Assembly: GCF_041346945.1 (NCBI RefSeq)
Contig: NZ_CP166850.1
Location: forward strand, 1,550,001 to 1,614,000
Direction: 5' to 3'
From: Amycolatopsis sp. cg9
GTDB lineage: Bacteria > Actinomycetota > Actinomycetes > Mycobacteriales > Pseudonocardiaceae
Length of the DNA: 64,000 bases
Of this stretch, positions 8,253 through 31,190 are shown piece by piece. How positions within the stretch are numbered: the first letter of the stretch is position 1; each line of letters starts with the position of its first letter. The notes beneath the pieces are model-generated. The model did not search any database. It saw nothing but the letters and a program-made list of their open reading frames with translations, and was not told the origin of the DNA. The position numbers were made by a program, and so were the translations under genes.

Positions 8253-8347
8253 GTTCCCCAATCCGGCCACAGTCACGGCCGAATGATTGCGCAGCAACGG
8301 TTGCGTACCGCTCGAAGGTCGGCCTACTTTTGGCCGGATTGGGGAAC
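8253..8347 (+). repeat. 95-bp element with 17-bp terminal inverted repeats (copy 1)
   Basis: Arm GTTCCCCAATCCGGCCA (8253-8269) is the exact reverse complement of 8331-8347, with a 61-bp core. A related 93-bp element with the same 61-bp core length lies on the minus strand at 31098-31190. Within the core, TTGCGT (8301-8306) and TACTTT (8325-8330) form a promoter-like pair with an 18-bp spacer. The right arm ends four bases before the phosphoesterase ATG at 8352, and its GGGGAAC may serve as the ribosome-binding site. It may be a promoter with flanking operators, a structured leader, or a MITE-like repeat. Confidence 0.75.
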
Positions 8348-8351
8348 AACC

Positions 8352-10076
8352 ATGGCCGAACTCACCCGGCGCACCGTCGCCACCGCGGGCGCCGCCGGTC
8401 TCGGGCTCCTGCTCTGCACGCCCACCGCGAACGCCCTCGACCGCGCCCTGCGGCTCACCGGCACGCGGTCGGTCAGCACCACCGGCACCACGCTCGAGCA
8501 GGTCGCGACGGCGTCGGGCACCGGCTACTCGCGGCTGTCCGCGGGCCCGGGCTGGCCCCTGGTCGTCCGGAGCGACCTCGCCGCGCCGCAGAGCGGCCGC
8601 GACGACCGCCGCCGCGCGCTCAGCGCCTTCGTGCAGTTCACCGACCTGCACATCACCGACACCGAAAGCCCCGCGCGGTTCGAGTACCTGCACCCCTTCA
8701 TCGGCTCCGCGCACCGGCCGCAGGAAGCGCTCGGCACCGTGGCCACCAGCGCGCTGGTCGAGCGCGTCAACAGCGTGCGGCAGGGCCCGTTCACCGGGCG
8801 GCCGTTCGACCTGATGGTCACCACCGGCGACAACACCGACAACCACGAGCTGATCGAGCTCGACTGGTTCCTCAAGGTCCTCAACGGCGGCACCGTCACC
8901 CCGGGCTCCGGCGACCCGAACGCCTACGAAGGCGTCCAGAGCTCGGGCAACAAGGAGTACTGGAACCCCTCGATCCCGGGCGTCGGCGACGACTACTCGG
9001 CCAAGGGCTTCCCGCAGCTGCCGGGCCTGCTCGAAGCGGCCATGAAGACGTTCACCGCGCCGGGCCTCGACGTGCCGTGGTTCTGCACCTTCGGCAACCA
9101 CGACGACAGCATCGTCGGCTCGCTGCCGGCCCGGATCCCCGGCATCGACGCCTGGTACACCGGCAAGTACAAGGTCATCGGCAAGGACGAGACCACCGCG
9201 AAGAAGCTCGCCGACGCCATCAAGAAGCCGGGTTCGAGCATCCCGGTCGCCGAGCTGTTCGGCGGTTCCGGCACCATCCGCGAGATCACGCCGGACGCGC
9301 GGCGCCGCCCGTTCAGCACCGGCGAGTTCGTCCGCGCGCACCTGGATGCGGCCAACACCGGGCCCGGCCCGGCCGGCCACGGCTTCACCAGCGCCAACGC
9401 CGACGGCAAGAACGTCTACTACACGTTCCGGATCGCCCCGGGCATCACCGGGATCAGCCTCGACACGACCACCGACGCCGGGTTCGCGGACGGCTCGATC
9501 GGGCTGGCGCAGTACTCCTGGGTGGAGTCGACGCTCAAGCGCAACAGCTCGGCGTACTACGACTTCTTCGGCCGCAAGGTCACCCACGCCGTCACCGACG
9601 AGCTGTTCATCCTGTTCAGCCACCACACCAGCGGCTCGATGGGCAACCTGCTGCCGGACTCGCGTCACCTGCTCGACCCGCGCCTGGACGGCAACGCGTT
9701 CGTCGCACTGCTCAAGCGGTTCCCGAACGTGCTGGCCTGGGTCAACGGCCACACGCACCGCAACCAGATCACGGCGCACGCCGGGAACACCCCGCAGCAG
9801 GGCTTATGGGAGATCAACACCGCGTCGCACGTCGACTTCCCGCAGCACGCCCGGATCGTCGAGGTCGCGGACAACGCCGACGGCACGTTGTCGCTGTTCA
9901 CGACGTTGATCGAGGCGGAGGCGCCGTACGCGGTGGACTACGGCGCCCGGACCCCGCAAGCGCTTGCGTCGCTGTACCGCGAACTGTCCTACAACGACAT
10001 CCACACCGACCCGGGCCGCGTCGGCGCAAGCGGGGACCACAACACCGAGCTGCTGCTGGTCAACCCGCTGTCCTGA
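8352..10076 (+). CDS. Tat-exported metallophosphoesterase (TIGR03767-like)
   Basis: A 574-residue secreted calcineurin-like phosphoesterase. The ATG at 8352 gives a twin-arginine signal (T-R-R-T-V-A-T-A-G, then a hydrophobic stretch and A-N-A cleavage near residue 28). Metal-binding motifs in order: F-T-D-L-H-I-T-D (~95), V-T-T-G-D-N-T-D-N (~155), F-G-N-H-D-D (~248), the late H-H-T-S-G (~420) and V-N-G-H-T-H-R-N (~462). It resembles a propionibacterial family of unknown substrate. A longer frame reaches 8244, but that sequence belongs to the repeat element upstream. Substrate not predictable. Confidence 0.85.
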   Translation: MAELTRRTVATAGAAGLGLLLCTPTANALDRALRLTGTRSVSTTGTTLEQVATASGTGYSRLSAGPGWPLVVRSDLAAPQSGRDDRRRALSAFVQFTDLHITDTESPARFEYLHPFIGSAHRPQEALGTVATSALVERVNSVRQGPFTGRPFDLMVTTGDNTDNHELIELDWFLKVLNGGTVTPGSGDPNAYEGVQSSGNKEYWNPSIPGVGDDYSAKGFPQLPGLLEAAMKTFTAPGLDVPWFCTFGNHDDSIVGSLPARIPGIDAWYTGKYKVIGKDETTAKKLADAIKKPGSSIPVAELFGGSGTIREITPDARRRPFSTGEFVRAHLDAANTGPGPAGHGFTSANADGKNVYYTFRIAPGITGISLDTTTDAGFADGSIGLAQYSWVESTLKRNSSAYYDFFGRKVTHAVTDELFILFSHHTSGSMGNLLPDSRHLLDPRLDGNAFVALLKRFPNVLAWVNGHTHRNQITAHAGNTPQQGLWEINTASHVDFPQHARIVEVADNADGTLSLFTTLIEAEAPYAVDYGARTPQALASLYRELSYNDIHTDPGRVGASGDHNTELLLVNPLS

Positions 10077-10129
10077 CGTTACGTCGGAGGTAATCGCCCC
10101 GCGGCGGGCTTTCGGGCAAGCTGCGGGGC

Positions 10130-10531
10130 ATGACCGATCCCGAGGGCACGCAGCTCTTCCACCGCTCCATGCCGTTCTCCGAGCGCCTCGGCGTCGAGGT
10201 GCTGGAACACGGGCGCGCGCTCGTCCGCAGCCGGCTGAAGTGGGACGAGAGCCTCTGCACGCTCGGTGGCGCGCTGCACGGGGGTGCGCTCATGGCGCTG
10301 GCCGACTCGACCGGGGCCGTGTGCGCGTTCCTCAACCTGCCTGAAGGCGGGCAGGGCACGACCACCGTCGAGTCGAAGACGAACTTCCTGCGCGCGGTGC
10401 GTTCGGGCTACGCCGTTGCGTCGTCCAGACCACTGCACGCCGGGCGCAAGTTCGTCGTGGTGGAGACGGAGATCCACGACGACGAGGGCAAGTTGGTCGC
10501 GAAAGTGACACAGACGCAGGCCGTCCTGTAG
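10130..10531 (+). CDS. PaaI-type hotdog thioesterase
   Basis: A 133-residue single hotdog-fold protein. The central segment G-G-A-L-H-G-G-A-L-M-A-L-A-D (residues ~45-58) carries the H-G-G and conserved Asp of the PaaI/YdiI acyl-CoA thioesterases, and V-E-S-K-T-N-F-L-R-A near 82 is also typical. It probably hydrolyses an aryl- or acyl-CoA in the cytoplasm. It stands alone between the phosphoesterase and the C39-like peptidase. Confidence 0.85.
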   Translation: MTDPEGTQLFHRSMPFSERLGVEVLEHGRALVRSRLKWDESLCTLGGALHGGALMALADSTGAVCAFLNLPEGGQGTTTVESKTNFLRAVRSGYAVASSRPLHAGRKFVVVETEIHDDEGKLVAKVTQTQAVL

Positions 10532-10538
10532 GTACCTG

Positions 10539-10567
10539 TTTACATACCTCGCCGGACCGGCGAAAAT
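10539..10567 (+). promoter_or_regulatory. Candidate promoter of the C39-like peptidase gene
   Basis: TTTACA (10539-10544) and GAAAAT (10562-10567) are 17 bp apart. The spacer contains the perfect odd palindrome CGCCGG-A-CCGGCG (10550-10562), a possible operator or the end hairpin of the thioesterase transcript. The gene starts at 10603, 35 bp downstream. Confidence 0.4.
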
Positions 10568-10602
10568 CCTCGCCTACTGGGTGGGTCGAGCGAGGAGCCG
10601 CG

Positions 10603-11856
10603 ATGCGGGTACGCAGTCTGTTCACATTGTTGTCGGTTGTCGTGCTGACAGCCGTAACCGTTCAGGTCGCCGAAGCGGGGCCGCGCGACGACGAAGCCGT
10701 CGACTACCACGAGTGGACCGGCGGCCGCTTCCACGAAGGCGACTTCGCCGGGCTCGCGCTGACCCGGGACGGCCTGCGCATCACCCGCCCGATCGGCACC
10801 GTGCAGCACACCGAGCCGGAGCTCGGCACGACGCGGACGTACGAGTACAGCCAGTGGACGTCGCCCTCGTACCGGCAGGGCTTCGGCGCGACGCAGCTGG
10901 TCGCGTCCTGGAACGCAAAGACGCCGGCCAAGACGTGGCTGCAGGTCGAGGCGCAGGGCCGGACGTCGGCGGGCGCCGAAACCGGGTGGTACGTGATGGG
11001 CCGCTGGGCCAGCGGGGACGCCGATGTCCTCCGCACCAGCGTCGACGGCCAGGACGACGCGAACGCGCTGGTGGACGTCGACACGCTGGTCACGAAGGCC
11101 GGGGTGACGCTGAAGTCGTACAAGCTGCGGATCAGCCTCTACCGCGAAGCCGGCTCGGGCGCGACGCCGTCGGTGTCGCTGCTGGGCGCGATGACGTCCG
11201 CGGTGCCGGACCGCTTCGAGGTGCAGCCGACGAAGCCGGGCCGCGCCACCGGGATCGAACTGAAGGTGCCCACCTACGCGCAGAACCTCCACAAGGGACA
11301 GTTCCCGCAGTACGGCGGGGGCGGCGAGGCGTGGTGCAGCCCGACGTCGACCGAGATGGTGGCCGAGTACTGGGGCAAGAAGCCGTCCGCCGAGGAGATG
11401 TCGTGGATCCCGGCCGACTACGTCGACCCGCAGGTGGCGTTCGCGGCGCGCTACACCTACGACCACGCCTACGACGGCACCGGGAACTGGCCGTTCAACA
11501 CCGCCTACGCGGCGTCGCGCGGGTTGAAGGGCCACATCACGCGGCTGCACTCGCTGAACGAGCTGGAGGGCTACATCGCCCGCGGCATCCCGGTGATCAC
11601 GTCGCAGTCGTTCCTCGCTTCGGAGCTGGACGGCGCCGGCTACGGGACGGCGGGCCACATCATGGTCGTCGTCGGGTTCACGAAGGACGGCGACGTGATC
11701 GCCAACGACCCGGCGGCCAGCAGCAACGACCGCGTCCGGAACGTCTACAAGCGCGACCAGTTCGAGAAGATCTGGCAGCGGACCAAGCGCTACCGCGCGG
11801 ACGGCACGGTGGCGGGCGGCCCCGGCGGCATCGCGTACATCATCACCCCCGCCTGA
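10603..11856 (+). CDS. Secreted C39-like cysteine peptidase
   Basis: A 417-residue exported protein with a signal peptide (basic R-V-R, then hydrophobic residues 5-22, A-E-A-G near 25-28). The N-terminal ~200 residues form a beta-rich region of unknown function. The C-terminal part matches the C39-like/papain-like fold: catalytic Cys in G-E-A-W-C-S-P-T-S (~246), His in A-G-H-I-M-V-V-V-G-F (~352) and the partner Asn/Asp in I-A-N-D-P-A-A (~367). Related actinomycete proteins are secreted and poorly characterised. The spacing suits an active enzyme, but the substrate is unknown. The unit ends at a perfect 19-bp hairpin. Confidence 0.85.
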   Translation: MRVRSLFTLLSVVVLTAVTVQVAEAGPRDDEAVDYHEWTGGRFHEGDFAGLALTRDGLRITRPIGTVQHTEPELGTTRTYEYSQWTSPSYRQGFGATQLVASWNAKTPAKTWLQVEAQGRTSAGAETGWYVMGRWASGDADVLRTSVDGQDDANALVDVDTLVTKAGVTLKSYKLRISLYREAGSGATPSVSLLGAMTSAVPDRFEVQPTKPGRATGIELKVPTYAQNLHKGQFPQYGGGGEAWCSPTSTEMVAEYWGKKPSAEEMSWIPADYVDPQVAFAARYTYDHAYDGTGNWPFNTAYAASRGLKGHITRLHSLNELEGYIARGIPVITSQSFLASELDGAGYGTAGHIMVVVGFTKDGDVIANDPAASSNDRVRNVYKRDQFEKIWQRTKRYRADGTVAGGPGGIAYIITPA

Positions 11857-11863
11857 TGTTCGC

Positions 11864-11906
11864 GAAGGCCACCTTCAGGAACCCTACGTTCCTGAAGGTG
11901 GCCTTC
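11864..11906. terminator. Perfect 19-bp palindrome between convergent genes
   Basis: Arms 11864-11882 and 11888-11906 pair perfectly around a 5-nt loop. It separates the convergent stops at 11856 and 11913 and can end both transcripts. It shares the GAAGGCCACC outer arm with the hairpin at 4034-4084. Confidence 0.82.
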
Positions 11907-11912
11907 ACGGCT

Positions 11913-12374
11913 TCACCAGGTCTTGCCGGCCTGCTCCCGGATCGCGCGGTTGATCCGGTTGAAGAAGCCGGTGAGCGCGATGTTCAGGACGATCGCCGAC
12001 AGCTGCTTGTCGTCGAAGTGCACGGCGGCGGCCGCCCAGATCTCGTCGGTGACGCCGGGCCGGCCGTCCTGGATCCGCGTCGCGGCTTCGGTCAGCGCGA
12101 GCACCGCCCGCTCCGGCTCGGTGAAGAACGGCGTCTCGCGCCAGGTGACGACGTTGTGCAGCCGTTCGTCGGTTTCCCCCTGCCGCTTCGCCGACGCGAC
12201 ACCCGCGAAGACGCACGGGCTGCAGCCGTTGATCTGACTGGCCCGCAGGTGGACCAGTTCGAGCAGCAGCGGGTCGACCCCGGCGCCGTGCACCGCCTTG
12301 AACAGCTGCTGGACCGCGCCGACCACCTCGGGGCTGCTCTCGCTCGTCAGCCGTGCTTCCATCGTTTCCTCCAT
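11913..12374 (-). CDS. Carboxymuconolactone decarboxylase/AhpD-like protein
   Basis: A 153-residue AhpD-like helical protein. The segment L-R-A-S-Q-I-N-G-C-S-P-C-V-F (residues ~50-63) carries the redox-active C-x-x-C of alkylhydroperoxidase-type members, followed by E-T-D-E-R-L. It is divergent from an ECF41-type sigma factor 65 bp away. That family is known for genetic linkage to carboxymuconolactone decarboxylases, oxidoreductases and epimerases, so this gene is the probable sigma target. A peroxide- or quinone-related function is plausible but not shown. Two methionines near the start (residues 1 and 5) leave the start slightly uncertain. Confidence 0.87.
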   Translation of the reverse strand: MEETMEARLTSESSPEVVGAVQQLFKAVHGAGVDPLLLELVHLRASQINGCSPCVFAGVASAKRQGETDERLHNVVTWRETPFFTEPERAVLALTEAATRIQDGRPGVTDEIWAAAAVHFDDKQLSAIVLNIALTGFFNRINRAIREQAGKTW

Positions 12375-12439
12375 CGGTTACCTGTGCCCCTCCGGGCTCG
12401 TCACCACCACGACGGAGCCGGACCGAGGAAGGTAACGAC

Positions 12440-13279
12440 ATGCCCGACACGCTGGCCGAAGCGTTCGAAGCCCGGCGCGAGCGCCTGCTCGCGGTGGCGC
12501 ACCGCCTGCTCGGGTCGCACGCCGACGCCGAGGACGCGGTCCAGGAGGCCTGGCTGCGCCTGTCCCGCCAGGACGCGGCGGCCATCGAAAACCTCGACGG
12601 CTGGCTGACCACGGTGGTCGGCCGGATCAGCCTGGACGTCCTGCGCTCGCGCAAGTCCCGCCCCGAGTCCCCGTACGACGAGATCGTGGTGGCGATCGAC
12701 GACGGCACCGAGGACGTCGCCCGCGCCGACTCGGTGGGCTTGGCGCTGCTGGTGGTCCTCGAGTCGCTGGGGCCCGCCGAGCGGCTGGCGTTCGTGCTGC
12801 ACGACCTGTTCGCGGTGCCGTTCGAGGAGCTCGGCCGCATCCTGGGCAAGTCCGCGGGAGCGACGAAGATGCTGGCCAGCCGCGCCCGCCGCAAGGTGCG
12901 GGCCGCGGACCGGCCGCCGGCGGCGGGAGGTTCCTCGCAGCGCGAAGTGGTCCAGGCGTTCCTGCGCGCGGCCCACGACGGCGACTTCGAGAGCTTGCTG
13001 CGGGTCCTCGACCCGGACGTCCAGCTGACGGTGGACACCCCGGGCGGCGTGGTGGTGGTACTGGGCGCGACGAAGGTGGCGGCGGGCGCCCAGTTCGGCG
13101 CGGCGTCCGACGGGAGCGCGGTGCTGGTCGGCGGGCTGCCGGGCGTGGTGGCGTGGCGCGGGGACGGATCGCCGTTGTCGGTGGTGGCGTTCGTGGTCGC
13201 GGACGGCCGGGTCACCGGCATCGCCGCGGTGGCCGACCCGGCGCGGCTGGCGTCGATGACGCTGCCGGAGCCGTCATGA
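12440..13279 (+). CDS. ECF41-type (SigJ-like) sigma factor with SnoaL-like tail
   Basis: A 279-residue extracytoplasmic-function sigma factor. Region 2 (A-H-R-L-L-G-S-H-A-D-A-E-D-A-V-Q-E-A-W) lies at residues 20-40, region 4 (F-E-E-L-G-R-I-L-G-K-S-A-G-A-T-K) at ~130-150, and a SnoaL-like domain begins near residue 172. In ECF41 this fused domain replaces an anti-sigma factor and modulates activity. The D-P-A-R-L near the end may correspond to the conserved N-P-D-K-V motif. Start ATG 12440 after GGAAGG. It is divergent from the AhpD-like gene. No exact TGTCACA/CGTC promoter of that family was found in the short gap. Confidence 0.9.
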   Translation: MPDTLAEAFEARRERLLAVAHRLLGSHADAEDAVQEAWLRLSRQDAAAIENLDGWLTTVVGRISLDVLRSRKSRPESPYDEIVVAIDDGTEDVARADSVGLALLVVLESLGPAERLAFVLHDLFAVPFEELGRILGKSAGATKMLASRARRKVRAADRPPAAGGSSQREVVQAFLRAAHDGDFESLLRVLDPDVQLTVDTPGGVVVVLGATKVAAGAQFGAASDGSAVLVGGLPGVVAWRGDGSPLSVVAFVVADGRVTGIAAVADPARLASMTLPEPS

Positions 13280-13416
13280 CATCCACCACCGCAGTTGCGG
13301 AGGGCGCAACTTGTTGCGTGATCGCCACCGAACCTCACTCATGCGGATGTCGCCATCTCCGCGTGATCCGTGATTAGCTGCGGGCAGGACCAGCAGGAGC
13401 CGGAAGGTGGATTCGC

Positions 13417-14514
13417 ATGCCGTACGAGGTGCAGGGGGTCGTTTCGCGGGCGAAGGGCGAACTCGTCTCGCTCGAAACCGTCGTCGTGCCCGATCCCGGG
13501 CCCGGCGAGGCCGTCGTGAACGTGCAGGCCTGCGGGGTCTGCCACACCGACCTGCACTACCGCGAAGGCGGGATCAACGACGACTTCCCGTTCCTGCTCG
13601 GCCACGAAGCCGCCGGTGTCGTGGAAGCCGTCGGGGACGGCGTCACCGATCTCGAGCCCGGTGACTACGTCATCCTCAACTGGCGCGCGGTCTGCGGCAC
13701 CTGCCGGGCCTGCAAGCGCGGCAAGCCGTGGTACTGCTTCGCCACCTTCAACGCCGCCCAGCCGATGACGCTGGCCGACGGCACCAAGCTGTCGCCCGCG
13801 CTCGGCGTCGGCGCCTTCCTCGAGAAGACGCTCGTCCACAGCGGACAGTGCACCAAGGTCGACCGCGAAGCCGAACCCGCCGTCGCCGGGCTGCTCGGCT
13901 GCGGGGTCATGGCCGGGCTCGGCGCCGCCATCAACACCGGCGCCGTCACGCGCGGGGACTCGGTCGCCGTGATCGGCTGCGGCGGCGTCGGGGACGCCGC
14001 CATCGCGGGCGCGAAGCTGGCCGGCGCCACGACGATCGTCGCGATCGACATGGACGACCGGAAGCTGGACTGGGCCAAGGACTTCGGCGCCACCCACACG
14101 GTGAACAGCCGGGGCCTTTCCGAAGCGCAGGTCGTCGAAGCCATGCAGGACGCGACGAACTCCTTCGGCCCGGACGTCGTCATCGACGCGGTCGGCCGCC
14201 CCGAAACCTGGCGCCAGGCGTTCTACGGGCGCGACCTCGCCGGCACCGTCGTGCTGGTCGGCGTGCCGACGCCGGACATGCGGCTGAACGACCTGCCGCT
14301 GATCGACTTCTTCTCGCGCGGCGGCTCGCTGAAGTCGTCCTGGTACGGCGACTGCCTGCCCAGCCGCGACTTCCCGATGCTCGTCGACCTCTACCTGCAG
14401 GGCCGGCTGCCGCTGGACAAGTTCGTCACCGAACGGATCGGCGTCGACGGCGTCGAGCAGTCCTTCGAGCGGATGCACCGCGGCGAGGTCCTGCGCAGCG
14501 TGGTGACGTTCTGA
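13417..14514 (+). CDS. mscR: S-(hydroxymethyl)mycothiol dehydrogenase
   Basis: A 365-residue zinc-dependent medium-chain dehydrogenase (class III-like) that oxidises the mycothiol-formaldehyde adduct with NAD, and often also reduces S-nitrosomycothiol. Catalytic zinc ligands: C-G-V-C-H-T-D (~41) and G-H-E-A-A-G (~66). Structural zinc Cys cluster: [15 protein letters not shown] (~92-106). Rossmann motif G-C-G-G-V-G-D near 190. The W-Y-C-F-A-T-F-N-A signature is typical of the mycothiol enzyme. It overlaps the next gene. Its presence supports an actinobacterial, mycothiol-producing host. Confidence 0.92.
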
Positions 14515-15134
14515 CCCTCTTCACCGACGACGAGTACCCGGCCGAGCCCTACCCCGGGTCGCGGCCGGGCTACTCGTTCGTGCACTTCGACGGGGTCGGG
14601 CACCCGCTCGACACCGCACCCGACGGCTGGCGGGACCGGCTGGCCGTGCTGGCGTACGGCTCGAACGCGAACCCGTCGAAGATCAGCTGGCTGCGCGCGC
14701 GGCTCGGGCTCGAAGGCCCGGTCGTGGTGGCGCACGCGCGCTGCGCCGGGCTCGCCGCGGTGTGGGCCGCCGGGTTCCGCGTGGTCGACGACCAGCGGCC
14801 GGCCACCATCACCGCGCTGGACGGCGTCGAGGAGCACGCCGTCTGGTTCGTGACGCCGGACCAGCTGGCGGTGCTCGACCGCTGCGAGGGCCGCGGCACC
14901 CGCTACCACCTGGCCCGGCTGACCGAACCCGACGTCACCCTCGAAGACGGCACCCGGCTGACCGAGGTGCACACCTACGTCGGCGCCGCGCCGATCCGCT
15001 ACCCCCTGCTGGTGGACGGCGAGCCGGTGCGCACCACCGACGTCCCGCAGGCCGAAGCGGCGGCGCTCGAAGGCGTCGCCGCGGACGGCCACGGCGTGCC
15101 GTGCGAAGTGCTCAGACCAGTTTCCCCGGGTTGA
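14511..15134 (+). CDS. Gamma-glutamylcyclotransferase-like protein, possible CTG start
   Basis: About 207 residues. The motif L-A-Y-G-S-N-A-N-P (~45-53) marks the GGCT/butirosin-type cyclotransferase fold. The reading frame has no ATG, GTG or TTG near the end of the upstream gene. The best start is CTG at 14511, overlapping the dehydrogenase stop as CTGA, analogous to ATGA couplings elsewhere here. A later GTG at 14580 would give a shorter protein still containing Y-G-S-N. In many actinobacteria a metallo-beta-lactamase gene follows this dehydrogenase; here this protein takes that place. It overlaps the convergent oxidase by 23 bp. Function in this context unknown. Confidence 0.75.
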
Positions 15135-16731
15135 GGATCCCGGTCGGGTCCACCGCGGACTTCGCCGCCCGCAGCACTTCCACGCCCAGCGAGCCGATTT
15201 CCGCGCTCAGGTAGGGCGCGTGGTCGACGCCGACCGCGTGGTGGTGGGAGATCGTGCCGAGCCCGGTGATCGCCTCGCACGCCGCCGCCTTCGCGCGCTG
15301 CCACTGGCCGACCGGGTCGGCTTCGTCGCGGGCCGTCAGCACCGTGAAGTACAGCGACGCGCCGGTTTCGTACGCGTGCGAAATGTGGCACATCACGATC
15401 GCCGGGCCGAGCGACGCCGTCAGCGCGGCGCGGACGTCGTCGCGCAGTTCGTCCACATTGGACCAGTAGGCCGCGGTTTCCAGCGTCTCGACGCAGATCC
15501 CCCGGTCCAGCAGCGCGTCGCGCTGGCGGGGTCCGGCGAACCGGCCGTGACGCCAGGACTCGCCGAGCGCCTTGCCGACGCGCACCGCGCCCAGCGCCTT
15601 CAGCCGGCGCGTGGTCTCGCGGCGGCGCACCGCGACGTCGTGCGCGGTGCCTTCCCAGCCGACGATGAGGAAGCATGGCCGCCGCACCCCGCGCGCGGCG
15701 AGGTAGCGGCGCAGCGCCCCCGTCTTGAGACCCGCGTTCAGCGCCAGCGAAACCTCGGTTTCGTCCACATCGGACAGCCGGGTGACGTCGGCGAGCGCGT
15801 GGTGCTGCGCGAGGTCGCGGACCGCCTCGCGGCCGGCTCCCCAGCCGGGCAGCGCGTACCCCTCGTACCGGCGGACCGCCGGTGCCGGCCGCACCCGCAG
15901 CGCGACCTCGGTGATCACGCCGAGCGCCCCTTCGCTGCCGATCGCGAGCTGGCGCAGGTCCGGCCCGGCGGCAGACGCGGGCGCCACGCCGAGCTTCCAC
16001 TCGCCGCGCGGGGTCGCCAGCCGCACGCCGGTGACCATGTCCTCGAACCGCCCGTAGCCCGACGAGGCCTGGCCGGCCGAGCGCGTCGCCGCGAAGCCGC
16101 CGATCGTGGCCCGCTCCCACGACTGCGGGATGTGCCCGAGCGTCAGGCCGTGCTCGCCGAGGAGGCGCTCGGCTTCGGGCCCGCGGACGCCGGCCTGCAG
16201 CACGGCGATGCGCGACTCGGCGTCGACCGACACCAGCGCGTCGAGCCGGACGAGGTCGAGCGCGATCACCGACGCCTTGTCGCCGCGCAGCGCCGCGACG
16301 CCGCCGACCACCGACGTGCCGCCGCCGAACGGGACGACGCCGATGTCGTGCCGGACGCACGCGTCGAGCACCGACTGGACCTCGTCGGCGTCGGCGGGGA
16401 GCACGACCGCGTCGGGCACCGGGAACGCCACCGCTGCCGACCGGCGCCGCAGCAGGTCGAGGTAGGACAGCCCGGTCGCCCTCGCCAGCCGCGCCGCGTC
16501 GTCCACCAGCACGTTCTCCGCGCCGACCACTTCCGACAACGCGTCGGCTGCAGATTCGTCCAGTTTCCGTGACGGTATTTCCACCGGCAATTCGCTCGCC
16601 GGGGCAGCACCGGGGGCCACTTGGCCGATACGCTGTTCAAGCCACTTGGCCGCTCGCGCGGGCAGCTGGGCGGCATCGGCGGCTTCCGCGGTCCAGGACC
16701 GGCGGAGACGGTGGTCAATGAGCGCGTTCAC
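15112..16731 (-). CDS. FAD-linked oxidase, alkyldihydroxyacetonephosphate synthase type
   Basis: A 539-residue VAO/PCMH-fold flavoprotein. FAD-binding motifs P-F-G-G-G-T-S-V-V-G-G (~137) and A-T-I-G-G-F-A-A-T-R-S-A-G-Q (~205) are clear. The C-terminal H-H-H (in G-T-I-S-H-H-H-A-V-G, ~500) and the preceding Y-F-T-V-L correspond to the His triplet and Tyr region of eukaryotic ether-lipid AGPS. It is divergent from a TetR gene and a GlpD-type glycerol-3-phosphate dehydrogenase, a neighbourhood pointing to dihydroxyacetone-phosphate/glycerol-3-phosphate and perhaps ether-lipid chemistry. Whether this enzyme makes ether bonds or oxidises a hydroxy acid (D-lactate-like) is undecided. Confidence 0.82.
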   Translation of the reverse strand: MNALIDHRLRRSWTAEAADAAQLPARAAKWLEQRIGQVAPGAAPASELPVEIPSRKLDESAADALSEVVGAENVLVDDAARLARATGLSYLDLLRRRSAAVAFPVPDAVVLPADADEVQSVLDACVRHDIGVVPFGGGTSVVGGVAALRGDKASVIALDLVRLDALVSVDAESRIAVLQAGVRGPEAERLLGEHGLTLGHIPQSWERATIGGFAATRSAGQASSGYGRFEDMVTGVRLATPRGEWKLGVAPASAAGPDLRQLAIGSEGALGVITEVALRVRPAPAVRRYEGYALPGWGAGREAVRDLAQHHALADVTRLSDVDETEVSLALNAGLKTGALRRYLAARGVRRPCFLIVGWEGTAHDVAVRRRETTRRLKALGAVRVGKALGESWRHGRFAGPRQRDALLDRGICVETLETAAYWSNVDELRDDVRAALTASLGPAIVMCHISHAYETGASLYFTVLTARDEADPVGQWQRAKAAACEAITGLGTISHHHAVGVDHAPYLSAEIGSLGVEVLRAAKSAVDPTGILNPGKLV

Positions 16732-16738
16732 GACTACA

Positions 16739-16767
16739 GTGTGACATATGGACGTGAAACGTCACAC
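16739..16767. promoter_or_regulatory. Inverted repeat over the TetR start codon
   Basis: GTGTGAC (16739-16745) and GTCACAC (16761-16767) are perfect inverted repeats 15 bp apart; inside lies GACGT-GAA-ACGTC (16751-16763). They cover the ATG of the TetR gene (16748), and only 16 bp separate it from the divergent oxidase start (16731). Binding here would block both genes. Confidence 0.6.
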
Positions 16768-22916: not shown

Positions 22917-22932
22917 GCCGCACAACGATAAG

Positions 22933-22962
22933 CGCCCCGCCGTGCGGGTGCACGGCGGGGCG
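22933..22962 (-). terminator. Hairpin terminator after gltA
   Basis: Perfect 12-bp arms, CGCCCCGCCGTG (22933-22944) and its complement (22951-22962), with a 6-nt loop. It lies 18 bp past the citrate synthase stop in its direction of transcription and upstream of phr. Confidence 0.8.
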
Positions 22963-22979
22963 GTTACCGGGGTGAGGGC

Positions 22980-24296
<1,317 letters not shown>

Positions 24297-24493
24297 GCAA
24301 GTCCCTCTCACGTTCGGCACGGAGCGGCGGCGCCTGTACGTTTCACAGGTAGCCACGTGTTCACGCGAGGAAACACTGGCGCCTCGCTGCACACCGCCCC
24401 GCTGGGGTATGAAGAATGCCCCTCTACGCTAGTCGAGGAACTGGTGTTCGCGCAGCGGTGGCGTTGCTCCTGGGGGCCCCTTTGGGACCAGGT

Positions 24494-25435
24494 TCACACG
24501 CTCGACGCCATATCCGCGGACGTCGGCGGCTCGGCACCGCTGCGCGACACCGTGATCGACGCCGCTTTCGCCGCGAAAGCGAGGGCCTCGCGCCACGCGT
24601 CCGCGTCGAGGGAGGCCAGGTCGGCGACCTCCCGGGTGTGCAGCCAGGCCAGCAGCGCGCCCTGCACGGTGTCGCCGGCGCCGATCGTGTCGACCACCTC
24701 GACCTTCCGCGACGGCACGTGGGCCAGCTCACCTGCGGCGGTGATCACCGCGAGCCCGTCGGCGCCCCGGGTGAGCACCACGGCGTCCACACCGGACTCG
24801 ACCCACGTCTTCGCGGCGGCGATCGGGTCGGCGCCGCCGGTGAGCCACGCGGCGTCGTCGTCGGAGATCTTGAGCAGCCGGACGTCCGGCAGCCAGGACG
24901 CGAACCGGGCGCGGTAGGCGGCCGGGTCGGTGATCAGCGCCTCGCGGATGTTCGGGTCGAGGACGGTCAGCACGCCGCGCGCGGCCTCGCGCCGCAGCAT
25001 CGCCTCGTACGCCGACGCGCCGGGTTCGAGGACCATGCCGAGGGTGCCGAGCGAGAGCGCGGTCACCGTGTCCGGCAGCGGTCCCGGATCCGCGACGAGC
25101 CGGTCCGCGGTGCCCTCGACGTAGAACGTGTAGCGCGCGGCGCCCTTCGCGTCGAGCGCGACCACGGCGAGCGTCGTCGGTTCGTCGCCGCGCTGCAGCA
25201 GCGCGGTGCCGACGTCCGATGCGTGCAGCCGCTCGACCATCGCGTCGCCGAAGCGGTCGGTGGACACGCGCGAGAGGAAGGCCGTCGGCACGCCGAGGCG
25301 GCCGGCCGCCAGCGCGACGTTGTACGGGCCGCCGCCCAGGCGGGGCAGCAGCGCGCGCAGCCCACCGTCCACAGTGGAATCCAAGGGGTCGCCGGGAACC
25401 AGGTCGACCAGAGCTTCTCCGCCTACGACGATCAC
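24494..25435 (-). CDS. PfkB family sugar kinase (fructokinase-like)
   Basis: A 313-residue ribokinase-fold kinase. N-terminal G-E-A-L-V-D-L-V-P-G (~6), the substrate-binding G-G-G-P-Y-N-V-A-L-A-A-G-R-L-G (~34-48), and the C-terminal anion hole/base region D-T-I-G-A-G-D-T-V-Q-G (~248-258) with the catalytic Asp in G-A-G-D. It phosphorylates a sugar or nucleoside, most like fructokinase. Monocistronic, between gltA and a TetR gene. The 197-bp gap to gltA holds the gltA promoter region and a weak CCTGG/CCAGG inverted repeat. Confidence 0.87.
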   Translation of the reverse strand: MIVVGGEALVDLVPGDPLDSTVDGGLRALLPRLGGGPYNVALAAGRLGVPTAFLSRVSTDRFGDAMVERLHASDVGTALLQRGDEPTTLAVVALDAKGAARYTFYVEGTADRLVADPGPLPDTVTALSLGTLGMVLEPGASAYEAMLRREAARGVLTVLDPNIREALITDPAAYRARFASWLPDVRLLKISDDDAAWLTGGADPIAAAKTWVESGVDAVVLTRGADGLAVITAAGELAHVPSRKVEVVDTIGAGDTVQGALLAWLHTREVADLASLDADAWREALAFAAKAASITVSRSGAEPPTSADMASSV

Positions 25436-25475
25436 GCGGGGAGTTTATCGATTGCGGGCTGACAATTCCTGTCCG

Positions 25476-26057
25476 CTATTTGTTCAGCCCGCCGAGCAGC
25501 AGTTCACCCAGAGCGGTGAACGCTTCGGCGTCGGAAACGTCGGTGCGCCGGCCCAGCTCCCCGGTCTGGATGCCTTCGATGATCAGCCCGGTCATCTCGG
25601 CCACGAGCCGGGCGTGGACGTCGCGGAACACCCCGTCGGCGACGCCCTTGTCGATGAACTGCCGGAGCCGCCCGGCCGCGAACCGGCTGTTGACCTGGTA
25701 GGCCTCGCGCGCCGGGCCGAACTCGGCGAGGTCGCGCATGAACGCCGCCGACGCCCGGTTCAGGTGCTCGGAGACGCCCGCCAGGTACTCCCCGATGAGC
25801 TTGCGGGCGTCGTCGATCCCGGCGATCCGCTCTTCGATCCGCTCGCCGGCGCCCCGGAAGAAGTGGGTGACGACCTTGACGGCGAGCTGCTCCTTGCTGG
25901 GCGCGAGCGCGTAGAGCGTCGACTTCGAGCAGCGCAGGCGGGCGGCGAGGTCGTCGAGGGTGAAGCCGGCGAACCCCTCCGCGAGGAAGAGCGCCTCGAG
26001 CTCGCCGAGCAGGGCGCGCTGGCGCGCGGTCGGCCGTCGGCGGGGTTCGGGGCGCAT
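25476..26057 (-). CDS. TetR family regulator of the divergent acyl-CoA dehydrogenase
   Basis: A 193-residue regulator: helix-turn-helix [24 protein letters not shown] (~30-53). ATG at 26055-26057 selected. It faces an acyl-CoA dehydrogenase gene across ~100 bp containing GTACTG palindromes, the usual arrangement for repressors of acyl-CoA catabolism. Confidence 0.87.
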
Positions 26058-26125
26058 CGGTTCACTATCTCCTACGTCTTCCGGCCACCCCAGGCCCGTC
26101 GTACTGTACTCTAAGCGGGCCCACA

Positions 26126-26141
26126 GTACTGTTTTCAGTAC
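26126..26141. promoter_or_regulatory. Operator palindrome GTACTG-TTTT-CAGTAC
   Basis: A perfect 6-bp inverted repeat with a 4-bp AT spacer, 17 bp before the acyl-CoA dehydrogenase ATG. A related overlapping site GTACTGTACT begins at 26101. Together they probably form a tandem TetR operator controlling both divergent genes. Confidence 0.7.
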
Positions 26142-26158
26142 CGCTTTGGAGGACGACG

Positions 26159-27295
26159 ATGCCCGCCGAACGCCTGCTGCCGGATTCGGACGCCGAGGAC
26201 CTGGTCGCGCTCGCGACCGAGATCGCCCGCGACGAGCTCGCGCCCCGCGCGGCGGCGGCCGAAGAGGCCGAGCAGTTCCCCCGCGACCAGTTCCGCCTGC
26301 TCGGCAAGTCGGGCCTGCTCGGGCTGCCGTACCCGGAGCGCTGGGGCGGCGGCGACGTGCGATACGAGGTCTACCTGCAGGTCCTGGAGGAGCTCGCGGC
26401 CGCGTGGATGACGGTCGGCGTCGGGCTGTCGGTGCACACGATGTCCTGCTACGCGCTGGCCGAGTACGGCAGCGACGAGCAGCGCGACGAGTGGTTCCCG
26501 GACATGCTCGAGGGGTCACTGCTGGGTGCGTACGCGCTCTCGGAGACGAACGCGGGCTCGGACGCGGCCGCTTTGTCGACCCGCGCGCGGCTGGACGGCT
26601 CGGACTACGTCGTCAACGGCACGAAGGCGTGGATCACGCACGCGGGCGTGGCGGACTTCTACACGACAATGGTCCGCACGGGCCCCGACGAGATCTCGTG
26701 CCTGCTGGTCGACGGCGCCACCGAAGGCCTCTCGGCGGCACCGCGCGAGAAGAAGATGGGCCTCACCGGCTCCCCGACCGCCCAGCTGATCTTCGACGGC
26801 GCCCGCGTACCGGCGTCCCGCCTGCTGGGTTCGGCGGGCGACGGGCTGCGGATCGCGTTGTCGTCCCTGAGTTCGGGCCGGCTCGGCATCGCGGCGTGCG
26901 CGGTCGGGTTGGCCCAGGCGGCACTGGACGAGGCGGTGGCGTACGCGAAGGGCCGCTCGCAGTTCGGCCGCCCGATCATCGACTTCCAGGGCGTCGAGTT
27001 CCTGCTGGCCGACATGGCGGCGACGGTGGAGTCGTCCCGGGCGACGTACCTGGAGGCGGCACGGCGGCGCGACCGCGGGCTGCCGTTCCAGCGCCAGGCG
27101 TCGATCGCGAAGCTGGTGGCGACCGACGGCGCGATGAAGGTGACGACGGACGCGGTCCAGGTCCTCGGCGGGGCCGGGTACACGCGGGACTTCCCGGTGG
27201 AGCGGTACATGCGGGAGGCGAAGGTGCCGCAGATCTTCGAGGGGACGAACCAGATCCAGCGGATGGTGATCGCGCGGGAGCTGAAGAAGGCCTGA
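26159..27295 (+). CDS. Acyl-CoA dehydrogenase
   Basis: A 378-residue FAD-dependent acyl-CoA dehydrogenase that introduces the alpha-beta double bond in an acyl-CoA. Motifs: [12 protein letters not shown] (~124), W-I-T-H-A-G-V (~160), and the C-terminal [16 protein letters not shown] followed by [10 protein letters not shown] (~360), whose Glu is the catalytic base position of short/medium-chain members. Strong ribosome-binding site GGAGG. The chain or branch specificity is not evident. Regulated by the divergent TetR gene (inference). Confidence 0.92.
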
Positions 27296-27388
27296 TCCAG
27301 CGGGTTCGGTCACACGCTTGGGACACCTACGGTTACTCCTGGTTGCACCTGAGCCGTGAGGCAATGCCGGGCGCCGTGAGGAGCCGTT

Positions 27389-27850
27389 GTGATTGCACTT
27401 CCCGAGCCGGGCCCTGCTCGCAAGTGGGAGATCCCCGATCACCTGCTGACGATCGAGGAGTACGCGGCGCTCGGTGAAACCGACACAGGTTTCACCGAAC
27501 TCGTGGAAGGCCGCGTCGTGATGTCCCCCGGCCCCAAGCCCGGGCACAACCTCGTGATGCTCGAGCGAGTACGCGAAGACAAAGACATGATTCGGGCCGA
27601 AGAGGTCGCCGTTGAGATCGAAATCGTGTCGCCGGGCTCCAAGCACACCGACTACCACGTCAAGCACGACGAGTACGCCGACGCGGGCATCCCGCACTAC
27701 TGGATCGTCGACATCACCGAGCCGGTCTCCCTGGTCGCCCGCCACCAAGCCGGCGAGTTCGGCTACCTCGATGCCTCAGCGGTCACCGGCACCTTCGCCA
27801 CCGACGTCCCGTTCCCGGTCAAGATCGACCTCGACGCCCTGCTCGACTGA
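27389..27850 (+). CDS. Uma2/DUF820 PD-(D/E)xK-fold protein with internal deletion
   Basis: A 153-residue protein related to the next gene across both ends: L-L-T-I-E-E-Y, F-T-E-L-V-E-G-R-V-V, and the C-terminal V-K-H-D-E-Y-A-D-A-G-I-P-H-Y-W-I-V-D. About 41 residues are missing between H-N and D-M-I-R-A-E-E, in frame. The lost segment includes R-P-D-L-L-V in the paralog, which carries a conserved nuclease-core Asp. The downstream E-I-V-S-P-G-S and Lys region remain. GTG start after GAGGAG. Probably inactive as a nuclease, or repurposed. Confidence 0.8.
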   Translation: MIALPEPGPARKWEIPDHLLTIEEYAALGETDTGFTELVEGRVVMSPGPKPGHNLVMLERVREDKDMIRAEEVAVEIEIVSPGSKHTDYHVKHDEYADAGIPHYWIVDITEPVSLVARHQAGEFGYLDASAVTGTFATDVPFPVKIDLDALLD

Positions 27851-27904
27851 CCCGACCTGGTCGAGCGAACGCTGTCCCACCCACGGGACGGATACCGTTT
27901 CCGC

Positions 27905-28453
27905 ATGCCCGACCAGCTGCTGACCATCGAGGAGTACCGCGCGCTCGGGGAGTCCGACCGCGGCTTCACCGAACTGGTGGAAGGCCGCGTAGTCCCCTCG
28001 CCCGGCGCCGGCCGCACGCACAACATGGCCGCGTGCCGGCTGGCCGCACAACTGGAGCGTCAGCTTCCGCGCGGCCTCGCGTTCGCCCTCGGCACCGACA
28101 TCGACCTCGGCTTGGCACCACCCGGCGAGCCCGGCTTCGCCCGTCGTCCGGATCTTCTGGTCTTCGACCGGACAGCCCGCGACCCGATCCGCGCCAAGAA
28201 CGTGGCGGTGGTCGTCGAGATCGCGACAACGGGCTCCCGGCGCACGGACTACCGCGTGAAGCACGACGAGTACGCCGACGCGGGGATCCCGCACTACTGG
28301 ATCGTCGACCTCACCGAACCGGTCACCCTCGTCGCCTGCCAGGGCTACCGAGACGCGCCGCCTGTCACCGGCACCTTCGCGACCGGTGAACCGTTCCCCG
28401 TCGAGCTCGACCTCGACGCATTGATCGGGCAGCACGCCGGAACCGCCCGGTAA
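27905..28453 (+). CDS. Uma2/DUF820 PD-(D/E)xK-fold protein, full length
   Basis: A 182-residue Uma2 family protein with the complete fold: E-L-V-E-G-R (~24), R-R-P-D-L-L-V-F-D (~80) and V-V-V-E-I-A-T-T-G-S (~100), then the Lys-containing Y-R-V-K-H-D-E-Y. The usual S-P-S/S-P-G after the core Glu is T-T-G here. Tandem paralog of the truncated gene 54 bp upstream. Family members are very numerous in actinobacteria and cyanobacteria; their biological role is not established. Confidence 0.85.
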   Translation: MPDQLLTIEEYRALGESDRGFTELVEGRVVPSPGAGRTHNMAACRLAAQLERQLPRGLAFALGTDIDLGLAPPGEPGFARRPDLLVFDRTARDPIRAKNVAVVVEIATTGSRRTDYRVKHDEYADAGIPHYWIVDLTEPVTLVACQGYRDAPPVTGTFATGEPFPVELDLDALIGQHAGTAR

Positions 28454-28472
28454 CCGGCGTGCCGCCCGAAAC

Positions 28473-29690
28473 TCAGCGGGCCTCGCGGTAGCGCCGGTCC
28501 TTCGACACGCCCTCACCCAGCGACTCGTCGAAGTGGTATACCTCGTCGCCGCGCACGAAGACGCGCAGCGCCCGGTTCATCACGTCCAGCGGGTCGCCCG
28601 ACCACAGCACGACGTCCGCGTCCAGGCCCGGCTTCAGCGCGCCGATCTGCCCGTCCAGGCCCAGCATCGACGCCGGGTTGACGGTCAGCGACTTCAGCGC
28701 CGTCGCCGGGTCGAGGCCGTCCTTCACGGCCAGTGCCGCCTGGTAGACCAGGAAGTTGATCGGGATCACCGGGTGGTCGGTGGTGATCGCGATCCGCACG
28801 CCCGCGCGGGCCAGGATGCCGGCCGAGCGCAGCGTGCGGTTGCGCAGCTCCACCTTGGACTTCGTGGTGAACAGGGGCCCCAGGATCACCGGGACGTCCC
28901 GCTCGGCCAGCAGGTCCGCGATCAGGTGGCCTTCGGTGCCGTGGTTGATCACCAGCTTGTAGCCGAACTCGTCGGCCAGCCGCAGCGCCGTGGCGATGTC
29001 GTCCGCGCGGTGGACGTGCTGGTCCCAGTACAGCTCGCCGTCGAGGACCTTCGACAGCGTCTCCAGCGTCAGGTCCACCTCGTGCGGCTTGCCCTCGGCC
29101 TCGGCGTGCGCGCGCTTGGCCTGGTAGTTGCGGGCCTTGGTGAAGGCCTCGCGCAGGATCGCCGCGACCCCCAGCCGTGTCGACGGCGTCTGCTTCTTGT
29201 CGCCGTACACGCGCTTCGGGTTCTCGCCCAGCGCGCTCTTCACGCTGACGTGCTCCGCGAAGATCATGTCGAGGATGCTGCGGCCCCAGGTCTTGACGCC
29301 GATGGTCTGGCCGCCGATCGGGTTGCCCGAACCCGGCTTGATGACGACGCTCGTGACGCCGCCGGCCAGCGCGTCGTCGAAGCCCGGCTCGTACGGGTCG
29401 ATGCCGTCGATCGCGCGGAAGCGGGCGCCGTTCGGGTCGGTCATCTCGTTGGTGTCGTTGCCCGCCCAGCCCTCACCGTCCTCGTGCACGCCGAGGTGCG
29501 CGTGCGCGTCGATGAAGCCGGGCAGCACCCAGGTGCCGGCCGCGTCGACGAGCTCGGCGTCCTCCGGGATGTCCACATCGGCCTCGGCGCCGATCGCGAC
29601 GATCTTGCCGCCGTCGATGAGGACCGTGCCGCCGTCGATGGGTTCACCGTCGATGGGGACGACGTAGCCCCCGACAATTGCCTTCGCCAT
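28473..29690 (-). CDS. Amidohydrolase, imidazolonepropionase-like
   Basis: A 405-residue metal-dependent hydrolase. Metal ligands: G-F-I-D-A-H-A-H-L-G (~62-71), later V-N/V-I-N-H-G-T-E-G-H (~255) and the catalytic Asp in I-T-T-D-H-P-V-I-P (~310). A C-terminal beta-sandwich (G-L-D-A-D-V-V-L-W-S-G-D-P) completes the fold. ATG at 29688-29690 chosen. No signal peptide, so cytoplasmic. The substrate (cyclic amide, dipeptide or similar) is not predictable. It runs in the same direction as the acetyltransferase and epimerase upstream, 11 bp apart, so it may be the third gene of that operon. Confidence 0.85.
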   Translation of the reverse strand: MAKAIVGGYVVPIDGEPIDGGTVLIDGGKIVAIGAEADVDIPEDAELVDAAGTWVLPGFIDAHAHLGVHEDGEGWAGNDTNEMTDPNGARFRAIDGIDPYEPGFDDALAGGVTSVVIKPGSGNPIGGQTIGVKTWGRSILDMIFAEHVSVKSALGENPKRVYGDKKQTPSTRLGVAAILREAFTKARNYQAKRAHAEAEGKPHEVDLTLETLSKVLDGELYWDQHVHRADDIATALRLADEFGYKLVINHGTEGHLIADLLAERDVPVILGPLFTTKSKVELRNRTLRSAGILARAGVRIAITTDHPVIPINFLVYQAALAVKDGLDPATALKSLTVNPASMLGLDGQIGALKPGLDADVVLWSGDPLDVMNRALRVFVRGDEVYHFDESLGEGVSKDRRYREAR

Positions 29691-29701
29691 AGTTCGCCAC
29701 G

Positions 29702-30169
29702 CTAACGAACTCGTCCGGGCGGGTGCACGCGGGCCTTCTCCAAGTGCACCAGTTCGTGGTTGTTCTCGGGGGTCCGGTGCGTCTCGCGGTACCCGTGCTT
29801 GGCGTACAGGTGCAGCGGCCCCGCGCTCTTCGAGCCGGTGCACAACCGGAACAGCGTCACCGCGGCGGGGGCCTGCGCCTCCGCGAACCGCAGCAGGCCG
29901 CCGCCCAGCCCGGCGCTCTGCCGGTCCGGCGCGACGACCAGCCGCCCGATCACCCCGACCGGCCCGGTCACCGTCAGGCGCACCGACGCGACCAGGCGCC
30001 CGTTCTCGCGGACGCCCCACGAAAGGCCTTCGAGCGCCACCCGCGTCTCGTCGAGGGTCTCCAGCAGGGGCGGCAGGTCGAGGTCGCCGTGCGCGCGGGC
30101 CTCGGTGACGTACGCGGCGCGCTGCAACGTCAGCACCTCGCCCGCGTCGGCGGGACCCAGCCGGTTCAC
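29702..30169 (-). CDS. GNAT family N-acetyltransferase
   Basis: A 155-residue acetyltransferase. Core motif V-V-A-P-D-R-Q-S-A-G-L-G-G-G-L-L (~83-98) matches the acetyl-CoA loop, and the C-terminal L-Y-A-K-H-G-Y-R-E-T is typical. GTG start at 30167-30169 overlaps the epimerase stop as GTGA, so it is translationally coupled. Acceptor unknown. Confidence 0.85.
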   Translation of the reverse strand: MNRLGPADAGEVLTLQRAAYVTEARAHGDLDLPPLLETLDETRVALEGLSWGVRENGRLVASVRLTVTGPVGVIGRLVVAPDRQSAGLGGGLLRFAEAQAPAAVTLFRLCTGSKSAGPLHLYAKHGYRETHRTPENNHELVHLEKARVHPPGRVR

Positions 30170-31071
30170 CGGACCCGGATGCCCCAGCTGCCCGACCACG
30201 ACGCCGACGGCTCCAGCTCGATCAGGTCGGTGCCCGTGTTGAGCGCGTCGGCCGGGCAGGTCATCGGCTCGATCGCGACGGCCCGGCCGCGGCCGACCAG
30301 GTCGTCCGGTGTGAACACCTGCGCCCAGCGGAAGTCCGGGCCGGTCCAGACGAGCAGCTGCTGGTCGCCGTGCGCCAGCACGAAGTGGTGCGTGCCGTCC
30401 TCGGCCGCCGCGAGGCCGCCGAACGCCGTGTCCAGGTCGACGCCTTCGAGCACCCGGCCGGCGCGGAAGTCGTACTCCGTGCCCTCGACGTCCTGCTCCG
30501 GCGCGTACGGCATCTGCTGGTCGCCCTCGTACGGCCGGACGCGGCTCGCCGGCAGCGTCAGGGTCAGCTCGTCGGTGGGGACGTCGCCGATCCGGAAGTA
30601 CGGGTGCGTGCCGACGCCGACGCCGATCGGCTGCTCGCCCTCGTTGCGGATCTCGTGCGTCACGGTCAGTTCGCGCGGCGCGAGCTCGTAGGTCACCGTC
30701 GCGCGCACCGGCACCGGCCAGCCCGGCTGCGCCTCGACGTCGACGGCCAGGGTGATCGACGACTCGGCGTGCTCCAGCAGCTCCCACTCGAGGTGGCGGG
30801 TCAGGCCGTGGATGGCGTTGCCGCGCGCCTCCTCGGTGATCTCGAGCTGCTGTTCCTCACCCTGGAAGGTCCACTTCCCGGCCTTGGTCCGGTTCGGCCA
30901 CGGCAGCAGCACCTGGCCGGCGCCCTTCGGCGGCTTCTCGTCTTCGCCGAATTCCTCGACGTACGGCACGCCGCCGACCTCGAAAGCGCGCAGCCCGGCG
31001 CCGATTTCGGTGACGACGGCGCGCGCGTTGCCGCGGGTGATCTCGAACTGCTGACCGGTCGGGTTGCCCAT
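30166..31071 (-). CDS. Aldose 1-epimerase family protein
   Basis: A 301-residue galactose-mutarotase-like protein. Motifs: P-W-P-N-R (~66), N-A-I-H-G-L-T-R (~93) with the first catalytic His, G-V-G-T-H-P-Y-F-R (~175) with the second, and E-P-M-T-C-P-A-D-A (~270) with the catalytic Glu. It interconverts sugar anomers in the cytoplasm. ATG at 31069-31071; the 93-bp repeat element (copy 2) ends 26 bp upstream in the same orientation as copy 1 has to the phosphoesterase gene. Confidence 0.87.
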   Translation of the reverse strand: MGNPTGQQFEITRGNARAVVTEIGAGLRAFEVGGVPYVEEFGEDEKPPKGAGQVLLPWPNRTKAGKWTFQGEEQQLEITEEARGNAIHGLTRHLEWELLEHAESSITLAVDVEAQPGWPVPVRATVTYELAPRELTVTHEIRNEGEQPIGVGVGTHPYFRIGDVPTDELTLTLPASRVRPYEGDQQMPYAPEQDVEGTEYDFRAGRVLEGVDLDTAFGGLAAAEDGTHHFVLAHGDQQLLVWTGPDFRWAQVFTPDDLVGRGRAVAIEPMTCPADALNTGTDLIELEPSASWSGSWGIRVR

Positions 31072-31097
31072 GGGCACGACCTTACCGATCCGCGCCG

Positions 31098-31190
31098 TTG
31101 CCGATCCGGCCAAAGGTAGGCCGCCCCCCGAGCGGCACGTGACCGTTGCGATCAGCCGATTCGGCCGTGGCCGTGGTCGGAGCGGCAACC
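31098..31190 (-). repeat. 93-bp element with 16-bp terminal inverted repeats (copy 2)
   Basis: Read on the minus strand: arm GTTGCCGCTCCGACCA (31190-31175), a 61-bp core, then arm TGGCCGGATCGGCAAC (31113-31098). Arms match 14 of 16. The core aligns without gaps to copy 1 (8270-8330), sharing CACGGCCGAAT, GCAACGGT, CCGCTCG and CGGCCTAC. The promoter-like TACCTT abuts the second arm as TACTTT does in copy 1. Stem positions 4 and 7 differ between copies but change on both strands of the stem. Confidence 0.75.

Follow-up and report, generated by a model that had tools for sequence, protein, structure and literature searches.

A small, very probably mobile hairpin repeat of Amycolatopsis whose stem extends into its target DNA

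A stretch of 64,000 nucleotides from Amycolatopsis sp. cg9 (contig NZ_CP166850.1, positions 1,550,001 to 1,614,000; this whole stretch is called the window here) carries two look-alike elements with inverted arms, one before the gene of an exported phosphoesterase and one before that of an aldose epimerase. Are these elements promoters flanked by operator arms, RNA switches, or copies of a mobile repeat? An earlier note, made from the letters of the window, had offered all three. The pair itself is real: a BLAST search with copy 1 recovers copy 2 (E 2.2e-11, 79% identity). Comparison with related genomes indicates that the element is almost certainly a mobile repeat. A unit of about 100-104 bp inserts mostly between genes, adjoining a TAAC-like tetranucleotide, and after insertion its stem crosses the element border: the internal left arm (GTTA) pairs with target TAAC, which forms the right foot. 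Our overall reading, to which we give a probability of roughly 0.5, is a non-autonomous, non-coding repeat of Amycolatopsis, similar to miniature inverted-repeat transposable elements (MITEs), in which a folded strand would pair with the target.

A covariance-model search of related genomes, the check proposed in the earlier note, found not few or no further copies but matches in 33 of 60 Amycolatopsis genomes (1-52 copies each, 422 matches in total); the other 27 have no match at E 0.001. The 10.6 Mb genome of the window itself holds 15 copies at E 4.3e-4 or better, three rows at E 0.12-0.47, one an opposite-strand shadow, having been set aside. Relatives near this genome range from no copy (G035) through nine (G036) to 34 (G039). 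The 231 copies used below are 251 model matches minus 20 duplicates; six opposite-strand shadows, 12 further opposite-strand matches and one of 16 full copies (L270) had been removed before the 251. The 15 own copies (L010-L024) have a mean likeness of 66%, the best pair reaching 86%, though most were inserted after the split from close relatives, and source copies for these inserts were not found.

The joined flanks of the own copies were compared with the 60 genomes. At 10 of the 15 sites, those of the two window copies among them, relatives whose flanks are similar show a clean empty site. Five candidates were scored per genome, so empty-site counts cover only loci fetched from that list; among these, the other five own copies (L010, L012, L018, L019 and L022) showed no empty site. 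Flank identity in the matches is mostly 88-96% (80-84% for part of the L017 loci) and the insert measures about 100-104 bp, with the exception of L014 (about 96). At the site of copy 1 all seven relative loci read are empty, with 4 bases where the filled site has 108; at that of copy 2 all 15 are empty, most with 5 bases against 108. No other copy in the set of 231 stands at the site of either window copy. Several copies of genome G051 likewise have empty sites in relatives. Part of the copies show a 2-bp repeat, mostly TA and less often GA, TG or TC, which is clear at L017 and at L011 (copy 1). Many copies, empty sites, variable copy number and this repeat support the MITE-like family that the earlier note had listed among its options.

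On the plus strand the unit consensus starts with a dinucleotide (mostly TA), followed by the tail CTGTGCCGATC, the left arm GTTACYRATCCGACCA and the loop strand CAGYCAC; the two strands of the inner helix (GGCCGA and TCGGCC) come next, with a variable tip between them, and the loop strand TRCTTTT and the right arm GGCCGGATYRGTAAC complete the unit. Two subfamilies are split by the inner helix (GGCCGA/TCGGCC versus GGCGGA/TCCGCC), the swapped pair being C-G in 180 copies, G-C in 49, mismatched in one and gapped in one. The extent of 93-95 bp given in the earlier note holds for the arms and what they enclose; the full unit also has a conserved tail, CTGTGCCG..., outside the left arm. The TAC(T/C)TT box that it described is conserved throughout the family (TRCTTTTGG), its role being that of an internal-loop strand. 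As observations apart, a 69-base match to the full-length model in G026 (L362 501-569) has lost the middle and kept the stem, and G051 holds tandem triplets spaced by 103-105 bp (L147 1946-2261 and L131 1735-2046), the joints of the L131 triplet reading GGTAACCGTGCCGATC where TACTGTGCCGATC is usual.

Covariation was measured on 118 sequences less than 90% alike. Standard pairs fill 92.8% of 2825 pair cells, compared with 84.5% in shuffles and at most 47.1% with slid partners, and 244 cells are changed on both sides where shuffles give 86.8; the first alignment and the covariance model came from eight own-genome copies, and matches found by a model are biased to its structure. The compensatory arm changes noticed between the two window copies are thus real and family-wide, except that the outermost right-arm positions, k4-k7 in the numbering below, are target DNA.

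The left arm starts 11-13 nt inside the insert, the right arm ends in target DNA, and the insert ends are not inverted copies of each other, so that terminal inverted repeats were not found at the insert ends. Stem pairs are counted outward, k1, k2 and onward, with ATCC/GGAT as the starting point. Pairing is strong from k1 to k7 (98-129 of 132 rows) and at chance from k8 on (27, expected 35.9); rows with unclear anchors were dropped, 7 of 139 from this count and 9 of 118 from the left-right arm test. The right-hand border of the element proper is at k3; the bases beyond it, k4-k7 (consensus TAAC), are already present in empty sites. Their left partners (consensus GTTA) lie inside the element, yet they co-vary with the target-side bases, and 88 of 109 sequences have the right k4-k5 that their left arm predicts (35.2 in shuffles). 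The target logo is TAAC, with no strong base preference further out. Single sites show the same agreement. L017 has target TACC (12 of 16 empty loci) and arm GGTA; target and arm read alike at L030, which arose by a separate insertion, 10 bp off, in a different species; copy 1 has target GAAC (five of seven empty loci) and arm GTTC; L136 has target GTATC (in G001; G003 differs) and arm GATAC.

Which strand folds can be read from half-changed pairs. Over 25 pairs, A-C on the plus strand, which is G-U on the minus strand, occurs 303 times and G-T 152 times, and one stem pair has 110 A-C and 2 G-T among 229. On balance this favours folding of the minus strand, as RNA or as single-stranded DNA. 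In the mechanism that we propose, the minus strand would be the folding strand, the foot would recognise the target by base pairing or be repaired to match it, and the transposing form would be a folded single strand, cut and joined by an enzyme. Some copies would, as a side effect, alter the leader or ribosome-binding region of a neighbour. A more specific version, tentative at best, is a hairpin without Y1 transposase in which the minus strand folds, the foot pairs with about four target bases and is then corrected, and the element carries an updated copy of its target site.

Changes after insertion were followed in 35 disjoint same-site pairs with an element likeness of 80% or more. Two-sided changes fill 15 of 243 cells in the outer arms (13 of them pair-to-pair; expected 3.8), 4 of 280 in the deeper stem (none pair-to-pair; expected 0.9) and 0 of 244 in the core. 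The arms are therefore kept matched near the foot, by selection, folded-strand repair or template switching. The last of these belongs to a rival account, an ordinary MITE with TA preference that is moved by a double-strand cut-and-paste transposase, its arms kept matched by template switching and target complementarity being secondary. Such an element would explain the TA repeat and the clustering of changes in the outer arms near the foot, and template switching is described in PMC8794818 as mending and creating hairpin stems. Copy 2 also fits: its foot CAAC matches its own arm, GTTG, and differs from the target in relatives, which read TGAC at this position in 7 of 15 loci, TAAC in one and other letters in the rest. 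We nevertheless consider the ordinary MITE rather doubtful, as at one stem pair unmended A-C outnumbers every other state (the 110 of 229 just given), although arm copying should remove it, the insert ends do not mirror each other, and no transposase appears among the 25 Pfam families listed for neighbour proteins.

Same-site pairs also bear on a second rival, a structured RNA that spreads by insertion, has a role in the cell such as the processing or stabilisation of neighbour transcripts, and keeps its pairing after insertion through selection on the RNA. The strong covariation, which includes the inner helix with its single mismatch against 180 C-G and 49 G-C pairs, the conserved loop strands and the wobble bias of the minus strand all suit an RNA. 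Such an RNA is unlikely all the same: in 78 of 84 same-site pairs the flanks are more alike than the element (median 0.9275 versus 0.839; these pairs are not independent), none of 280 deep-stem cells shows a pair-to-pair double change after insertion, copies face neighbouring genes in mixed orientations and relatives do without them. One of the same-site pairs (L017/L030) is 10 bp apart, and the groups possibly hold other independent insertions. At some sites different species hold different subfamilies (L021/L294, L024/L096, L020/L029 and L036/L375), and sites have therefore been re-used or their contents replaced.

Several results weigh against a folded strand that pairs with its target. All four positions k4-k7 match in only 138 of 231 copies, and at L132, L143 and L013 the arm and the target in the empty site do not fully match. 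Near-identical cores at different sites, compared for guiding versus rewriting of the foot, gave 12 disjoint pairs that split 4/4/3/1, with no clear lead for either. The dinucleotide before CTGTG equals right k4-k5 in 49 of 109 cases (expected 38.7; 22 of 10,000 shuffles are as high), a modest agreement because the right side often has CA while the left stays TA, as in copy 2. At some pairs the wobble bias favours the plus strand ((32,85) with 65 G-T and 47 A-C; k7 with 16 versus 5). L013 and L016 stand where nearer relatives have empty sites but G046 and G054 have a copy; loss, transfer and repeated insertion are thus also possible there. Lastly, the Y1 transposase (PF01797), an obvious candidate mobiliser, was found in 0 of 60 genomes, while a control was positive in 5 of 14.

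On this absence we reject an IS200/IS605 or repetitive extragenic palindromic (REP)-RAYT element, with the limit that PF01797 covers RAYTs only partly (PMC6006769). A retro-element moved by a resident reverse transcriptase is rejected as well, by the 13 of 33 carriers that lack RVT_1 (PF00078), among them the genome of the window and G039 with its 34 copies. Mobiliser searches covered three families, Y1, IS110 and reverse transcriptase.

In the third rival an IS110-type recombinase is the mover, and the folded RNA would pair with target and element ends in the manner of a bridge RNA. IS110 genes (PF01548) are commoner among carriers (29 of 33) than among non-carriers (15 of 27; Fisher p 0.008, uncorrected for kinship), IS110 elements employ a short core and a base-pairing RNA (PMC11208160), and in several copies the loop CACAGT is complementary to the left-end ACTGTG. 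We regard it as very improbable, given that carriers G041 (18 copies), G038 (9), G050 (2) and G007 (1) have no IS110 match and that the 12 IS110 loci have no match to the element model at E 0.01 or better (best E 0.044).

An autonomous parent was looked for with a left-half pattern in three genomes, which gave 20 stretches. In this look, which was not a full search (nine of the 20 were inspected, over 100 bases after each match), no parent was found, and two left halves lack a right half in that span (L268, L269). A pattern scan of genome contigs gave 71 stretches, 69 of them in Amycolatopsis; the other two (L084, L092) have no model match at E 0.001. The scan pattern fits the commoner subfamily only, and absence outside the genus is therefore not demonstrated by it. 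Copy 1 has no match at E 0.01 in plasmid and phage collections.

The genomic setting gives no support to the two regulatory options. With same-site groups counted once, the copies occupy 173 sites, of which 149 are intergenic and 19 lie within predicted genes; three have short flanks and two are undetermined. Of the intergenic ones, 94 lie at most 15 bp from a gene edge, and the orientations relative to neighbour genes are -E>- 59, +E>+ 40, -E>+ 37 and +E>- 13. Sites that are mostly intergenic and in every orientation do not fit a gene-start switch; placement just before a gene start, true of both window copies, is thus no rule across the family. The neighbour scan took in 99 of 148 listed proteins and four window proteins that partly repeat them, so that family counts hold some doubles; these 103 proteins match 164 Pfam families, the commonest being TetR_N with seven. 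Neither an RNA switch nor a promoter with operator arms agrees with copies in all orientations, neighbour proteins of no common function and a window scan with no Rfam family at gathering score at either copy. A cis-regulatory RNA of the riboswitch class was rejected separately, as constant position and orientation before related genes were not found.

Copy 1 runs on the plus strand from 8240 to 8347 (dinucleotide GA, tail, hairpin and hairpin foot; 114.3 bits) and copy 2 on the minus strand from 31096 to 31203 (100.7 bits), both scores coming from a model built from eight copies that include these two. In one of several equivalent registers the inserted DNA of copy 1 is 104 bp, 8242-8345 (plus), with GA at 8240-8241 repeated at 8344-8345. 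Its left arm is at 8253-8269 (plus), the outer end GTTC being complementary to target GAAC by sequence and fold, and its right arm at 8331-8347 (plus), where the final GAAC is target DNA. The inner helix strands are GGCCGA at 8277-8282 and TCGGCC at 8319-8324 (both plus), and the fold of the plus strand around copy 1 has z -6.3 against shuffles. For copy 2 the inserted DNA, again in one of equivalent registers, is 103 bp, 31099-31201 (minus); by sequence, the left arm is at 31174-31190 and the right arm with its target-side foot CAAC at 31097-31112 (both minus).

Genes, both in the window and around the family's other copies, were called with our own codon-usage script, not a standard gene finder. 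Copy 1 is followed by an exported metallophosphoesterase-like protein at 8352-10076 (plus; Pfam Metallophos 23.7 bits, cut-off 21.5). In relatives this gene starts shortly downstream of ggggagcGAACAACCATG; the copy 1 insert parts ggggag from the start codon, and the right arm supplies TTGGGGAACAACCATG, the GGGG of which lies inside the plus-strand stem. This GGGG is presumably the new ribosome-binding site, and from its position the stem may lower or regulate translation of the phosphoesterase. Copy 2 lies between the gene of the aldose 1-epimerase that follows it, at 30166-31071 (minus), and a divergent gene of a TetR-type regulator on its other side, at 31271-31819 (plus), both from the gene caller and Pfam. 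Single copies may alter the expression of a neighbour, as in the side effect proposed above. The one Rfam family that reaches its gathering score in the window, 5_ureB_sRNA (RF02514; 70 bits, threshold 40), matches away from the copies, at 45040-45332 (plus), a stretch with minus-strand genes according to the gene caller.

How does the repeat compare with known systems? The MIRU repeats of mycobacteria are likewise short intergenic repeats of Actinobacteria, found at gene borders and sometimes in tandem. We know of no hairpin-to-target complementarity in them, and we set them beside the Amycolatopsis repeat by description, not by sequence. To our knowledge, IS200/IS605 elements make no 2-bp target repeat, unlike part of the Amycolatopsis copies, and the Y1 enzyme that they use was not found in the 60 genomes. 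The likeness is in the pairing: IS608 and other members of that group are described in PMC5934647 as moving as a single strand with an end hairpin, a tetranucleotide guide in the element selecting the target, and the Amycolatopsis repeat has a hairpin with a tetranucleotide complementary to its target. REP sequences with their RAYT (TnpAREP) are scattered intergenic hairpins whose foot carries a tetranucleotide (PMC6006769); the Amycolatopsis consensus differs in having no GT[AG]G foot and no Y1 match. For IS110, PMC11208160 describes a two-base core and a structured bridge RNA that pairs with target and donor; here no recombinase gene adjoins the copies among the listed neighbour families, and G041 and G038 carry the repeat without IS110.

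Bacterial MITEs such as ERIC/RU-1, Correia/NEMIS and RUP are, according to PMC2229807, about 100-200 bp long, non-coding, gene-free and intergenic, with TA ends and stem-loop transcripts. The Amycolatopsis repeat is like them, again by description and not by sequence, in being less than 200 bp, non-coding, dispersed, mostly intergenic and TA-flanked, with empty sites in relatives. It departs from them in its internal left arm, its unmatched ends and a stem foot made of target DNA, and no insertion sequence with matching ends was found for it in searches that covered Y1, IS110 and reverse transcriptase families. Since the ends are not terminal inverted repeats, we do not file it as a standard MITE, and since the enzyme was not found, we do not file it as an IS200 or REP element. 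By this comparison it would work most like the small TA-flanked mobile repeats of bacteria, combined with target pairing of the IS608 type. We found no published account of such an Amycolatopsis repeat in the openly available literature; an earlier description in subscription journals is possible.

What moves gene-free miniature elements is an old question of bacterial genomics; of two obvious movers, Y1 was found in no carrier of this repeat and reverse transcriptase is absent from part of them. The family also advises caution, as compensatory changes in a stem need not imply a selected RNA. With stem bases that lie in target DNA yet vary together with the element, target choice by base pairing becomes open to direct testing. 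For annotation of Amycolatopsis, an antibiotic-producing genus, the repeat explains many hairpins that stand at the edges of genes.

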